Shown here: one piece after another, positions 3,289-7,182 of the stretch
Position numbering within the stretch: the stretch's first letter is position 1
How the letters are laid out: the number at the start of each line of letters is the position of its first letter
Source of the DNA: Flavobacteriales bacterium
GTDB lineage: Bacteria; Bacteroidota; Bacteroidia; Flavobacteriales_D; Crocinitomicaceae
Length of the DNA: 45,085 bases
Direction of reading: 5' to 3'
NCBI GenBank assembly: GCA_947449575.1
Contig: CANFRV010000027.1
Span: forward strand, 1 to 45,085
Notes under the pieces: model-generated
What the model was told of the DNA's origin: nothing
What the model saw: the letters and a program-made list of their open reading frames with translations, nothing else
Databases searched by the model: none
Made by a program: the position numbers and the translations under genes

Positions 3289-3346
3289 TAATAAAAACTC
3301 AGTGGAACTCTGTAATTAACTTTGCGAACCTCTGTGGTTAAACTTT
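3289..3346 (+). promoter_or_regulatory. ACTCTGTG-type repeat carrying a -7 box for yaaA
   Basis: The segment holds four diverged units beginning ACTCAGTG, ACTCTGTA, ACTTTGCG and ACCTCTGTG at 9-14-bp steps. Within it TAACTTTG at 3317-3324 fits the -7 consensus, with about 41 nt to the yaaA TTG start. Confidence 0.45.
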
Positions 3347-3365
3347 TTATAACACAACATACAAA

Positions 3366-4130
3366 TTGAAAATCGTAATTTCTCCCGCAAAGTCAATCGA
3401 CTACAAAAAAATAGAAAACTCTAATTTATCGAGTATTCCATTGTTCCTGAAGGATACCGAAAGTTTAGTAACGAAAATGAAAAAGTTTTCTTCGAAGAAG
3501 ATTGCGGAAATGATGCATTTGTCAAAAGATTTATCTGATTTAAATTACAACCGTTATCAAAATTGGGAAAGTCCAGTCGTTGAAAGTTCAACAATTTTCC
3601 CTGCGATTAGTGCTTTTAATGGTGAGGTTTACAAAGGTTTTGATGTTTTTTCTCTTTCTAAGGAAGAAATTGAAAATTCCCAAGATAATTTACGTATTCT
3701 TTCAGGTTTATATGGAATACTGAAGCCCATGGATTTGATCTACCCGTATCGTCTAGAAATGGGAACAAAATGGAAAATAACTCCAAAGATTAATAACTTA
3801 TATTCTTTTTGGGGGACAAAAATTGCTGATTCTCTAAATAAAGAAATGACAGAAGGGGAGGTATTGATTAATTTAGCTTCCACTGAATATTTTAAAGCTG
3901 TCGATTTGAAAATTTTAAAAGCAAGAGTTATTACACCTCATTTTAAAGACTTTAAGAATGGTCAATTAAAAATTGTTATGATGTACGCAAAACATCAAAG
4001 GGGAGCTATGGCGAGATACATCATTAAAAATAAGATTACAAATCCAGAAGAATTGAAAGTGTATAATGTGGACGGTTATTCTTTTGATGTGAATACTTCC
4101 ACGGAAAACGATTGGGTTTTTACACGTTAA
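3366..4130 (+). CDS. yaaA: YaaA-family peroxide stress protein (DUF328)
   Basis: The 254-residue product matches the YaaA family, which in E. coli limits intracellular free iron and so protects DNA during peroxide stress. The signature start KIVISPAKSIDY is present, as are LSGLYGILKPMDLIYPYRLEMGTKW at about residues 112-136 and NLASTEYFKAVD at about 165-176. The start is TTG; I accept it because the family begins exactly at this KIVISPAK block and no in-frame ATG lies upstream. The gene is alone, with its own putative promoter. The inverted-repeat DUF559 element begins 25 bp after the stop. Confidence 0.93.
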   Translation: MKIVISPAKSIDYKKIENSNLSSIPLFLKDTESLVTKMKKFSSKKIAEMMHLSKDLSDLNYNRYQNWESPVVESSTIFPAISAFNGEVYKGFDVFSLSKEEIENSQDNLRILSGLYGILKPMDLIYPYRLEMGTKWKITPKINNLYSFWGTKIADSLNKEMTEGEVLINLASTEYFKAVDLKILKARVITPHFKDFKNGQLKIVMMYAKHQRGAMARYIIKNKITNPEELKVYNVDGYSFDVNTSTENDWVFTR

Positions 4131-4155
4131 ATATTTAAAATGAAGGTTTTACATC

Positions 4156-4191
4156 CTTCCCTCCTTGAGGAGGGACCGAGGGAGGTGACAA
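4156..4191 (+). repeat. left 36-bp inverted repeat of the DUF559 element
   Basis: The 36 bases are perfectly complementary to 4647-4682. The unit contains the palindrome CCCTCCTTGAGGAGGG (4159-4174), then ACCGAGGGAGGTGACAA. The GGGAGG in the tail could pair instead with the CCCTCC arm. Confidence 0.95.
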
Positions 4192-4211
4192 TGTGATAGT
4201 TTTAAAATAAT

Positions 4212-4580
4212 TCATTTTTTCAGAACTTCTATAGTATACTGAATTTTCAGTTTTACTTCATCTAATTGATTTAAAACCTCCCCTTCTGAAAAACGAAGAA
4301 TGTCAAAACCTAATTCCTTTAGTTTTTCTTGTCTAAAAAAATCATATTCAGGTTTTGAATAATGGGAACTTCCATCTATTTCTATTATTAAGCCTAAATT
4401 AGGGGCGAAAAAATCTACTATGAAATGATCAATTGATCTTTGACGTAAAAACCTCACTCCGGTCTGTTCTTTTGATAATAAAGCTTTCCAAATTCTCTTT
4501 TCTGCCTTCGAAACTGAATTATTCCGTAAATCTCTTGCGAATTGTTTTAGGTTTTTATTGTAATAATTATTTAGGTGCAT
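4212..4580 (-). CDS. DUF559 / Vsr-like endonuclease-fold protein
   Basis: The 122-residue product matches the DUF559 family of the PD-(D/E)XK/very-short-patch-repair fold. It shows ARDLRNNSVSKAEKRIWKAL (about 15-34), VRFLRQRSIDHFIVDFFAP (about 42-60), the likely catalytic LIIEIDGSSH block (about 64-73), then FFRQEKLKELGFDILRF (about 81-97). The putative metal ligands are the Asp of IVDF and the Glu/Asp of IEIDG; all are intact. The gene stands alone between yaaA and the symporter, is read on the minus strand, and is bracketed by the 36-bp inverted repeats. A nuclease role in moving or maintaining the repeats is inference. Some DUF559 proteins are encoded singly with no known role. Confidence 0.88.
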   Translation of the reverse strand: MHLNNYYNKNLKQFARDLRNNSVSKAEKRIWKALLSKEQTGVRFLRQRSIDHFIVDFFAPNLGLIIEIDGSSHYSKPEYDFFRQEKLKELGFDILRFSEGEVLNQLDEVKLKIQYTIEVLKK

Positions 4581-4646
4581 TGTTTAAATTTTAATTGAAT
4601 TTAAGCAATATTTTATTTATATCAAAATCATTTTTTCAGATTTAAG

Positions 4647-4682
4647 TTGTCACCTCCCTCGGTCCCTCCTCAAGGAGGGAAG
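4647..4682 (-). repeat. right 36-bp inverted repeat of the DUF559 element
   Basis: This is the perfect reverse complement of 4156-4191 and includes the same palindrome. It lies 66 bp upstream of the DUF559 start codon and 23 bp from the end of the symporter gene. Confidence 0.95.
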
Positions 4683-4705
4683 AGAATCCACTCCATTTAA
4701 TTTTC

Positions 4706-6169
4706 TTAACTTATCTCAGGCTCCCTATTTTGAATTTCTTTAGCGTACACGGTTTCATCGAATTCTTTTTCACTTTTTGCTATTATTAGCGTTGCAACCC
4801 CATTCCCAATAATATTTGTTATTGCTCTCGCTTCACTTAAGAACTTATCTACGCCAAAAAGAAATGCTAATCCTTCAAGTGGAATTGTGTGAAGAGAACC
4901 AAGTGTGGATGCTAGTACAATAAAGCCACTACCCGTAACTCCAGCCGCCCCTTTCGAAGTAATCATTAAAATCCCAATGATTAATGCAAGTTCATTAAAG
5001 CTTAACGGAATGTTATAAATTTGAGCTAAAAAAATGACGGACATCGAAAGATAAATAGCGGTTCCATCTAAATTGAAAGAATATCCAGTAGGAACAACAA
5101 GTCCAACGACTGATTTTTTACAACCTAATTTCTCCAACTTTGTCATTAAATTAGGTAAAGCAGTTTCTGACGAAGAGGTTCCTAAAACAATTATAATTTC
5201 TTCTTTAATATATTTTAGAAATTTAAAGATATTTAATTTGAAATAACGCATGATTAATCCCAGTACAAGGATGACAAAAACAATCATGGTAAAATAAACA
5301 GTAATAACTAATTTACCCAGAGGAATAAGCGTTTTTAACCCATATTCACCCACAGTATAGGAAATTCCTGCAAATGCCGCAAAAGGTGCTAAATACATTA
5401 CATATTTGAGTAGTTTAAAAACAAATTTAGAAGCTTTGTCTAATTTTACAACGATAGAACTTCTTCTTTTTGAATAATTTAAGCTGATTCCTAGGAAAAT
5501 GGAAAAGAGTAATATTTGTATTGTTAAATTGGTTTTTAAAAAAGTAATCCATGAAAATGTTTCTGAATTTTTGCAACCACTTTTAGTCATGCAATGAATT
5601 TTCGATTTAGATCCATCAAGTAATTCAAGCTTTACAGCTTCAGTCATCTCAATTTCTTTACCATCTTTCATTTTAATTTTAGTAACAAAGCTCATTTTGG
5701 TCGTGTCAGAAATATCTCCTAATTTTACTTTGTCACAATCTTTCATTTCTAGAATAGTAACATCAGCTAATTGAATAGATTTACCACCTTTAAAGTTGAT
5801 TTTGGAGACTGAATTTATGCTAATATTTGAACCGTCTCTCTTTTCAATTTTCGACATGTCAATGCTACCAGGTTTAAACATTAATGCAAAACAAATCCCT
5901 ATTCCTAAAGCTACTGTTGTAACAATTTCAAAGTAGATTAACGATTTTAAACCAATTCTACCTACTTTTTTTAAGTCCCCCATAGAACTAATTCCTAGAA
6001 CAATTGTTAAAAAAATGATGGGAGGAACGAAGCATTTAATAATAGCGATGAAAACTTCACTGATCATTTTCATTTTAACTCCCATGTCAGGATTGAAATG
6101 ACCTAAGAATACACCAGCGATAATGGCAATAATGACGTAAAAAGTAAGATGTCTAAATATTTTTTTCAT
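4706..6169 (-). CDS. dicarboxylate/amino acid:cation symporter (DAACS family) with enlarged loop
   Basis: The 487-residue inner-membrane protein couples uptake of a C4-dicarboxylate or acidic amino acid to H+ or Na+. Family hallmarks are present: the serine-rich hairpin LGTSSSETALPNL, GYSFNLDGTAIY in TM7, the HP2 stretch SKGAAGVTGSGFIVL, and DKFLSEARAITNIIGNGVAT in TM8. GltP/DctA proteins are usually about 420-440 residues; the excess is an approximately 110-residue Lys/Asp-rich segment (residues 101-210) between TM3 and TM4, predicted extracytoplasmic and built from repeats. The fmt gene lies 56 bp upstream on the same strand. Substrate cannot be fixed from sequence. Confidence 0.93.
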   Translation of the reverse strand: MKKIFRHLTFYVIIAIIAGVFLGHFNPDMGVKMKMISEVFIAIIKCFVPPIIFLTIVLGISSMGDLKKVGRIGLKSLIYFEIVTTVALGIGICFALMFKPGSIDMSKIEKRDGSNISINSVSKINFKGGKSIQLADVTILEMKDCDKVKLGDISDTTKMSFVTKIKMKDGKEIEMTEAVKLELLDGSKSKIHCMTKSGCKNSETFSWITFLKTNLTIQILLFSIFLGISLNYSKRRSSIVVKLDKASKFVFKLLKYVMYLAPFAAFAGISYTVGEYGLKTLIPLGKLVITVYFTMIVFVILVLGLIMRYFKLNIFKFLKYIKEEIIIVLGTSSSETALPNLMTKLEKLGCKKSVVGLVVPTGYSFNLDGTAIYLSMSVIFLAQIYNIPLSFNELALIIGILMITSKGAAGVTGSGFIVLASTLGSLHTIPLEGLAFLFGVDKFLSEARAITNIIGNGVATLIIAKSEKEFDETVYAKEIQNREPEIS

Positions 6170-6225: not shown

Positions 6226-7182
6226 TCAAACGTACAAACCATCTACTGGATTTCCTGCTAATAATTCTTTAAAATTCATTCTCCGTTTTCCTTCTGGTTG
6301 AAGTTCTGTTACGCAGAGGTAAAAGTCTCCGCATGGAAATAATATACCATCTTTTGAAGCAACCAATTTTTTTGAATCTGTCACCCTCAGATTAGAAATT
6401 TCTGTTCTAAATATTTTGAATGATTTCTCTTCGTTTTTACTTTCGTTTTTTACAATGGTCCAAGCAGCTGGGTAAGGAGAAAGTCCTCGACAAAAATCAT
6501 GAATCTCTTGCACAGATTTTGACCAATCAATCTGGCACGTTGCTTTAAAAATTTTAGGAGCAGATTTTAATTCTCCTTCTATTAAATCTAATTGTGGTAT
6601 CCCTTGAATATCTCCAATTCGAATTTTATCAATTGTTTTACAAGCTACTTTTGCACCTAAATACATCAAACGATCATGTAATTCTCCCACGTTTTCATTC
6701 TTATCAATGTCTACGTATGCTCGATCGATAATTTTCCCTGTATCAATTTCTTTTTCAATAAAGAATGTAGTAACTCCAGTTTGGAGCTCTCCATTAATGA
6801 TTGCCCAGTTAATTGGAGCTGCTCCTCTGTAATTAGGTAAAATAGAGGCATGTAGATTGATCGTTCCTTTTGGAGGCATTGCCCAAACGATTTCAGGCAG
6901 CATTCTGAAAGCAACGACAACAAATAAATCTGCTTTTAAAGAGTGAAGTTGTTGAATAAATACTTCGTCTTTTAAATTTGTTGGCTGTAAAACATTTAAT
7001 TCGTGTTCAGTAGCATATTTCTTGACATCACTTTCCGATAGTTTTTGACCTCGTCCTGCAGGTTTATCTGGTGCGGTAATTACAGCTACTATATTGTATT
7101 CATTTTTGATTAATCCATCTAAAATGGTTACAGCAAATTCGGGAGTACCCATGTAAACGATTCTGAAATTGTCTTTTGTCAT
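6226..7182 (-). CDS. fmt: methionyl-tRNA formyltransferase
   Basis: The 318-residue product formylates initiator Met-tRNA using 10-formyltetrahydrofolate. The N-terminal formyltransferase domain shows IVYMGTPEFAV (about 8-18), the folate-binding and catalytic block NLHASILPNYRGAAPINWAI with its Asn and His, and EKEIDTGKII with the catalytic Asp. The C-terminal domain (about 205-318) follows and ends in the usual ELLAGNPVDGLYV stretch. It lies 45 bp downstream of the FAD-oxidase gene and 56 bp upstream of the symporter gene, so all three may share a transcript. Confidence 0.97.
   Translation of the reverse strand: MTKDNFRIVYMGTPEFAVTILDGLIKNEYNIVAVITAPDKPAGRGQKLSESDVKKYATEHELNVLQPTNLKDEVFIQQLHSLKADLFVVVAFRMLPEIVWAMPPKGTINLHASILPNYRGAAPINWAIINGELQTGVTTFFIEKEIDTGKIIDRAYVDIDKNENVGELHDRLMYLGAKVACKTIDKIRIGDIQGIPQLDLIEGELKSAPKIFKATCQIDWSKSVQEIHDFCRGLSPYPAAWTIVKNESKNEEKSFKIFRTEISNLRVTDSKKLVASKDGILFPCGDFYLCVTELQPEGKRRMNFKELLAGNPVDGLYV

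Follow-up and report, generated by a model that had tools for sequence, protein, structure and literature searches.

A DUF559 nuclease gene enclosed by inverted triplex-type repeats and the recurrence of this pairing across bacterial phyla

Described systems and the layout of the locus

REP–RAYT and REPIN systems comprise short palindromes, dispersed singly or as inverted pairs, together with one dedicated small enzyme gene that is flanked by the same palindromes and encodes a Y1 HUH transposase. The palindromic elements of Rickettsia and Wolbachia are translated in frame within host proteins, and homing endonucleases of the EDxHD type, such as I-Bth0305I, have empty and occupied alleles. Intrastrand triplex motifs (TM and TMECO, earlier PIT elements) consist of a C-arm, a loop, a G-arm, a short loop and a mirrored G-strand, and partly form inverted pairs. 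According to the parts of Holder et al. (2015; PMC4666352) available to us, TM is present in many copies in cyanobacteria and enterobacteria, the E. coli motif has 23 copies in MG1655, and the search rule for such motifs is a stem of 6–15 nt, loops of 1–6 nt and a third strand mirroring the purine arm.

The locus described here lies in a window (the whole stretch of DNA that was analysed, 45,085 nucleotides) from a Flavobacteriales bacterium with a genome of 3.53 Mb in 69 contigs. It is a compact unit in which a single DUF559 gene is enclosed by two repeats (Table 1), and it is situated between convergent genes that we take to be yaaA-like and dicarboxylate-symporter-like, both names resting on the look of the sequences with no family search behind them. 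The sequence-only reading had described perfect 36-bp inverted repeats around one DUF559 gene, and this is what we found: CTTCCCTCCTTGAGGAGGGACCGAGGGAGGTGACAA is present at both ends in opposite orientations with zero mismatches, where 100 dinucleotide shuffles of the window gave a mean of 0.00, and the inverted match, at 82%, can be followed over 57 nt. The element shows no visible target-site duplication, and a search with ARAGORN gave no tRNA for the window.

Table 1. Coordinates of the element, its neighbours and the sub-threshold whalefall-1 matches.
Feature	Position	Strand	Remarks
Whole element	4156..4682	.	527 bp; 22 bp at the site in the closest relative found (G002)
Left 36-bp repeat	4156..4191	+	hairpin 4158-4175, spacer 4176-4178, third purine strand 4179-4185
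Left repeat, 3' end		+	TGACAA directed towards the gene, after AGGGAGG (4179-4185)
Right 36-bp repeat	4647..4682	-	inverted, identical to left; hairpin 4663-4680, third strand 4653-4659
DUF559 nuclease gene	4212..4580	-	122 aa; sole ORF between the repeats
Left neighbour gene	3366..4130	+	presumably yaaA-like; outside the element; used for locating the empty site
Other neighbour gene	4706..6169	-	presumably dicarboxylate-symporter-like; outside the element
whalefall-1, full-length match in window	4649-4683	-	sub-threshold
whalefall-1, full-length match in window	4155-4189	+	sub-threshold
whalefall-1, match elsewhere (L045)	6684-6718		sub-threshold; 33.3 bits
whalefall-1, match elsewhere (L048)	3304-3338		sub-threshold; 32.0 bits
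whalefall-1, match elsewhere (L049)	4309-4343		sub-threshold

Each repeat comprises a TCCCTCC-TTGA-GGAGGGA hairpin followed by CCG, AGGGAGG and, on the gene side, TGACAA, giving a stem of 7 and loops of 4 and 3. The repeat goes beyond the palindrome of the earlier description: AGGGAGG mirrors the purine arm GGAGGGA exactly, so the 36-mer is a three-segment, triplex-type motif. This third mirrored purine strand, the absence of a GTAG tag from the 36-mer, and a Vsr-type nuclease in place of the Y1 transposase distinguish the locus from REP–RAYT, with which it shares its general organisation. The motif satisfies the intrastrand triplex search rule of PMC4666352, but its stem is shorter than that of TM (7 rather than 9 nt), its sequence is different, and it is linked to DUF559, whereas no partner gene accompanies TM in the available parts of that paper. 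Folding as single-stranded DNA with a tool that does not model triplexes was no better for the window 36-mer than for shuffles (z −0.84), with z −0.82 and −2.73 for two further repeats.

Both repeats also match the Rfam whalefall-1 RNA family (RF01762) end to end, with 22.7 and 21.6 bits. All scores obtained for this family are below the gathering score of 37, so the matches are no more than a lead; should it hold up, what Rfam lists as whalefall-1 RNA would in fact be a DNA repeat, of the same class as that of the window. At a separate locus (L112, 2329–2387), a SAM-II riboswitch scored above gathering.

The product of the window gene is a DUF559 protein (PF04480; E 6.2e-28, 97.3 bits versus a cut-off of 20.6), and the same Pfam scan returned no Y1_Tnp. 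Residues invariant in 20/20 alignment rows include E27, D56, E67, D69, H73 and D80; which of these are catalytic is inferred. The AlphaFold model (mean pLDDT 90) matched NGO0050 (Z 16.1), I-Bth0305I (3r3p, Z 12.9) and Vsr (1cw0, Z 10.0), with matches below about Z 8 disregarded, and a profile search returned NGO0050 (E 2.4e-31) and I-Bth0305I (E 7.1e-07). The protein is predicted to have a Vsr/EDxHD nuclease fold, which agrees with its earlier assignment to the Vsr/PD-(D/E)XK type. It is similar in size to a catalytic domain and is without the long DNA-binding part of I-Bth0305I; also unlike that enzyme, it is encoded with no intron or intein in sight and has its own flanking repeats, and its cleavage activity is inferred. 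Weak phage-family matches include HNH and homing endonucleases, and PADLOC gave only a weak restriction-enzyme match for the window protein (E 1.7e-5). The dN/dS value between the window gene and its closest homologue fetched (L028) was 0.16, and two other pairs gave 0.29 and 0.37, a fourth being saturated; the three computable pairs all show purifying selection on the gene.

Association of DUF559 genes with triplex-type repeats

DUF559 was present in 31 of 59 related genomes, the source genome counted. From 30 loci we chose 20 stand-alone loci, among them that of the window (L008), the excluded ten lying inside long host frames, being partial or standing at contig edges. A repeat of the window layout lay at most 350 bp from the gene in 18 of these 20, and on both sides in 11, with a density of 2.82/kb near the gene versus 0.047/kb farther out. 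The second set, obtained by scanning genome contigs, comprised the best 80 of 563 confirmed DUF559 loci; two of the 80 also belong to the first set. For these best 80 of 563, the repeat finder placed a repeat within 350 bp at 67 loci, on both sides at 37, and nothing at 13, with 3.27/kb near the gene versus 0.105/kb elsewhere in the same loci (31-fold). Flank-spanning inverted repeats with a score of at least 15 were present at 31 of the 65 loci in this set with full flanks (15 loci were too short and were excluded), versus 4 of 763 control windows that had the same geometry and came from the same loci. The gene of the cultured Pontibacter fetidus (L055) stands between the two copies of an inverted pair that is identical over 33 bases. 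The gene–repeat association is strong, and the link between nuclease and repeats that had been proposed from one locus stands as an association. Chance was considered as the origin of the window repeat pair and of the association, and was ruled out by the shuffles and control windows.

At least 12 phyla are represented among the clear cases, with the phylum taken from the record title and the records being mostly metagenome bins: Bacteroidota, Balneolota, Ignavibacteriota, Calditrichota, Fidelibacterota, Cyanobacteriota, Nitrospirota, Nitrospinota, Spirochaetota, Planctomycetota, Myxococcota and Thermodesulfobacteriota. Gene and repeats thus go together across phyla, a recurrence suggesting that the nuclease is a missing partner that spreads or maintains the repeats. 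A related general pattern was found in all 24 chosen DUF559 genomes, with 4 to 120 matches each, versus 7 in total for the reversed control; the forward counts look inflated because five-C arms match twice.

Many repeats stand away from any DUF559 gene. The source genome has 7 exact occurrences of the 16-base hairpin core and 10 copies of the general layout, and one DUF559 gene was found in it; the gene-free copies include an inverted pair (C8:74248-74375) and a direct pair at C23. All 12 genus genomes searched contain repeats, with a strong DUF559 match in three (G000, G003 and G010) and a weak match in three more, and two assemblies without a DUF559 match hold 12 and 10 repeats (G006 and G008, 83% and 76% complete). 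The parallel with REP–RAYT drawn by the sequence-only reading is upheld by this dispersal, by an allele without the element in the closest relative found and by the recurrence of the gene–repeat link in many phyla. Among the matches listed, 9 of 10 inward close repeat pairs combine two different types, the exception being the C8 pair; the five E. coli inverted motif pairs likewise mix two types, as far as the accessible text of PMC4666352 goes.

The repeats are specific in how they face the gene and in which nuclease they accompany. Nearest repeats point inward in 82 cases and outward in 22. In two-sided loci with the expected orientation, the tag class agrees between sides in 18 of 27, where shuffling gives 2.9 on average and at most 10, and differs in 9. 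Mapped onto a tree of 79 nucleases, 54 of them clearly labelled, the tag class requires 19 changes, versus a mean of 36.8 in 500 shuffles (minimum 30) and of 33.5 when shuffled within phylum (minimum 28). The tree was built from few columns by a quick method and has many open forks. For 710 cross-phylum pairs, the closest tenth share a tag class in 28% versus 9% (permutation p 0.0005). Because the triplex code makes the tag depend in part on the arm, the tag label stands for the repeat type as a whole and does not count as an independent trait.

The triplex code itself was assessed on 90 repeats by comparing the mirrored purine arm with the tail, where G faces G in 63 of 72 cells and 144 of the 161 cells with A have A or T opposite; G.GC, A.AT and T.AT are reverse-Hoogsteen triads. 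Agreement over all cells was 0.83, versus 0.60 shuffled (maximum 0.67 of 2000), and the direct-order control lay between these at 0.70. With one repeat per locus (n=55), agreement was 0.82 versus 0.59 shuffled (maximum 0.72). The score is anchored on the G-run and allows T opposite A; without these provisions, mirror and direct order give 0.80 and 0.79. Judged from base order, the repeats are C-arm/G-arm hairpins with a third G-strand that obeys the triplex code, and the existence of actual three-stranded DNA is inferred.

Y1 transposases of the related genomes were considered as owners of the repeats and rejected. Such repeats were near 2 of 26 Y1 genes (0.11/kb near versus 0.06/kb elsewhere; four of 30 loci, L208-L211, were left out as partial or weak matches), neither of the two matches resembles the DUF559 repeats, and Y1 genes have other hairpins. 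The sole Y1 gene found in the source genome is on a different contig with no such repeats nearby. The sequence-only claim that a nuclease takes the place of the Y1 transposase is supported by these counts and by the Pfam result.

We found no description of the DUF559–repeat link in the literature searched, including DUF559 with inverted repeat, although most subscription-journal papers were outside its scope. The link is absent from the portions available of PMC4666352, PMC12907096, PMC9403480, PMC3733652, PMC10448857, PMC3943268 and PMC6006769, and a literature text search with six repeat strings gave no match beyond a human-gene paper. One of these sources (PMC9403480) places a cyanobacterial DUF559 gene in the EDxHD homing family, and the words repeat, inverted and palindrom are absent from as much of it as was available. 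REP-like repeats with an enzyme of their own are a known kind of system; the combination of a Vsr/EDxHD nuclease and triplex-type repeats is undescribed in the literature searched.

Empty sites, insertions within genes and competing explanations

An empty site between the yaaA-like and symporter-like genes, looked for at the suggestion of the earlier reading, is present in the closest relative found (G002; YaaA 96% identical). Both flanking genes are present there, 22 bp replace the 527, and the adjoining borders are identical over 55 and 38 bases. Aligned with one element hairpin, the 22 bp agree at 19 positions, or at 17 when the orientation is reversed; they may be a target or a scar, and gain cannot be distinguished from loss at this site. 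Holder et al., in the parts seen (PMC4666352), record deletions in which an inverted pair is lost and a hairpin stays behind. In another congener (G007), the same gene pair has neither element nor hairpin, and seven others have different genes downstream of yaaA (by eye; G004 and G008 are outside this count). Neither yaaA nor the symporter was within the flanks of any of the 104 other DUF559 loci. The sequence-only reading would have been refuted by a repeat pair unique in the genome, a gene at the same locus in all relatives and the lack of an empty allele, and none of these outcomes occurred. The C8 pair of the source genome is also absent from G002, and was rejected as a clean empty site, the intergenic stretch being too diverged. 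A G002 repeat (at C43) is orthologous to a source-genome repeat (at C3), so that copy was inherited.

DUF559 domains were also found within host genes. In L016 (325-3306, G030), a DUF559 domain and palindromes lie in frame within the editing-domain region of a leucyl-tRNA synthetase, bordered by stretches that match the Thermus enzyme up to position 236 and from 241. In L022 (769-3042, G014), a TPR-SpoIIE protein has an in-frame DUF559 domain with palindromes at its borders, which are translated into short Pro/Gly-rich strings. Both inserts differ from the Rickettsia and Wolbachia palindromic elements in that they also carry a nuclease domain. Elsewhere, the last residues of two DUF559 proteins appear to be encoded by the flanking repeat (PLSRGEQ in L019 and PLNPPPKGE in L035), which would thus supply the gene end. 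Two loci of one assembly (L047 and L054) have 314 bases in common at 93% and diverge just past the repeat tag. Patchy presence, differing loci and insertion within host genes give DUF559 the look of a mobile gene. As a separate observation, one assembly has twin DUF559 matches of equal coordinates and score at contig starts (G024:C1:5-256 and G024:C2:5-256), which is what a repeated unit would be expected to cause by interrupting the assembly.

The reading we favour, with moderate confidence, is that the 527-bp unit is a copy of a widespread two-part system, in which a Vsr/EDxHD-type nuclease (DUF559) is paired with cognate triplex-type palindromes, REP-like in organisation and homing-like in the inferred action of the nuclease on its repeats. 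We have demonstrated the association, inward orientation, side matching, covariation, the empty allele and, as a prediction, the fold; we infer recognition of the folded motif, cleavage, repair, mobility and its direction. The nuclease would recognise hairpin-plus-third-strand DNA, single-stranded or extruded, and would then nick or break it. Repair could fill the break with a copy of a single repeat, of a repeat pair or of the gene-bearing unit as a whole, with the repeat arms serving as homology, and the whole would be a homing-like analogue of REP–RAYT. Gene-free repeat pairs would then be either a non-autonomous, REPIN-like form or scars after gene loss. Evidence against this reading comes from the genus genomes that have repeats without the gene, the 13 loci without a repeat among the best 80 of 563, and a degenerate motif in E. 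coli strain LR-46. Further points against it are the 9 of 27 two-sided loci with differing tag classes, the absence of a visible target-site duplication, the ambiguity between gain and loss in G002, a protein hardly larger than a catalytic domain, single-strand folding no better than that of shuffles, the partial dependence of the tag label on the arm and the intermediate score of the direct-order control.

It remains conceivable, though we think it unlikely, that DUF559 is a domesticated, housekeeping nuclease that cleans up or controls repeats of triplex or hairpin type (or unusual DNA of other kinds) whose spread takes a different route, with the flanking pair as a regulatory or processing site. 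The many repeats without a gene and the purifying selection in the three computable pairs fit such a role, as does the statement by Holder et al., in the text available, that no copy of the E. coli motif was found with transposons, phages or plasmids (PMC4666352); the patchy presence of the gene among relatives, its differing loci and its insertions within host genes do not. That the gene is merely a passenger, the repeats being breakage or insertion hot spots at which any small gene that lands is retained, appears improbable and is already strained. Triplex motifs do sit in unstable E. coli regions according to the same partly available source, but a hot spot leaves unexplained why nearest repeats point inward, why the repeat class is often equal on both sides and tracks the nuclease tree even in within-phylum shuffles, and why Y1 genes are not beside such repeats.

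We consider it very improbable that the role of DUF559 here is mismatch repair of the Vsr kind, in partnership with a cytosine methyltransferase, and that the repeats are incidental. Its predicted fold matches Vsr, and the Caulobacter DUF559 protein VsrA is proposed to act as Vsr and is functionally linked with a solitary methyltransferase, as reported in the accessible part of PMC12907096. Mismatch repair gives no reason to expect flanking repeats that match the protein, however, and a Vsr-like function elsewhere in DUF559 is compatible with a repeat-linked role here. Hardly credible is the proposal that the repeat pair is a mere bidirectional terminator. The convergent neighbours speak for it, as does the one site found by a terminator scan (4142-4159, minus strand; 0.6 expected), with a stem that reaches four bases into the left repeat. 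Against it, the scan gave no site at the repeat hairpins, and similar repeats lie within coding genes and in unrelated contexts. Earlier work cited by Holder et al. (PMC4666352, available in part) found no terminator activity of the E. coli motif.

Relation to the E. coli triplex motifs

Only tentatively can the two-part, nuclease-and-repeat reading be widened to the view that the triplex repeats of many phyla, E. coli motifs included, form a superfamily with DUF559 nucleases as its dedicated, structure-reading enzymes, each nuclease reading its own motif. Such mobile DNA would form a class that has neither transposase nor intron and relies on a Vsr-like nuclease, and reading, cleavage and mobility in it are all inferred. 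Intrastrand triplex repeats are known in E. coli and many genomes, and a partner or mechanism was not found in the literature searched, part of which was available incompletely. DUF559 is still of unknown function in Pfam, and the link gives both the repeats and the family a testable role. If true, populations of REP-like repeats have at least two separate origins, with enzymes that are unrelated to each other.

In MG1655, motif 9 (1351204-1351239, in the numbering of PMC4666352, a source available in part) is 168 bp from the DUF559 gene ycjD (1351407-1351760), and the post-hoc chance of 1 of 23 motifs lying so near ycjD is about 0.004. Among 5426 E. coli genomes, 3365 have the gene. Three strains with ycjD were read: the motif is there in MG1655 and GPEC859 and is degenerate in LR-46. 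The E. coli motif pattern occurs in 4 of 36 other genomes, with 68 of the 73 matches from one Nitrospirota genome.

The fabI-sapF interval of strain JJ1886 (L242) has neither ycjD nor the motif; it was rejected as a clean empty site, since JJ1886 carries an RND efflux operon in this interval, at the place that ycjD occupies in other E. coli strains. An O157:H7 strain (L213), for which the fabI side alone is visible, has an operon of the JJ1886 kind. In the MG1655 locus (L212), the triplex motif at 2705-2740 adjoins ycjD, and a degenerate second motif, identified by eye at ~2894-2925, overlaps the end of the gene.
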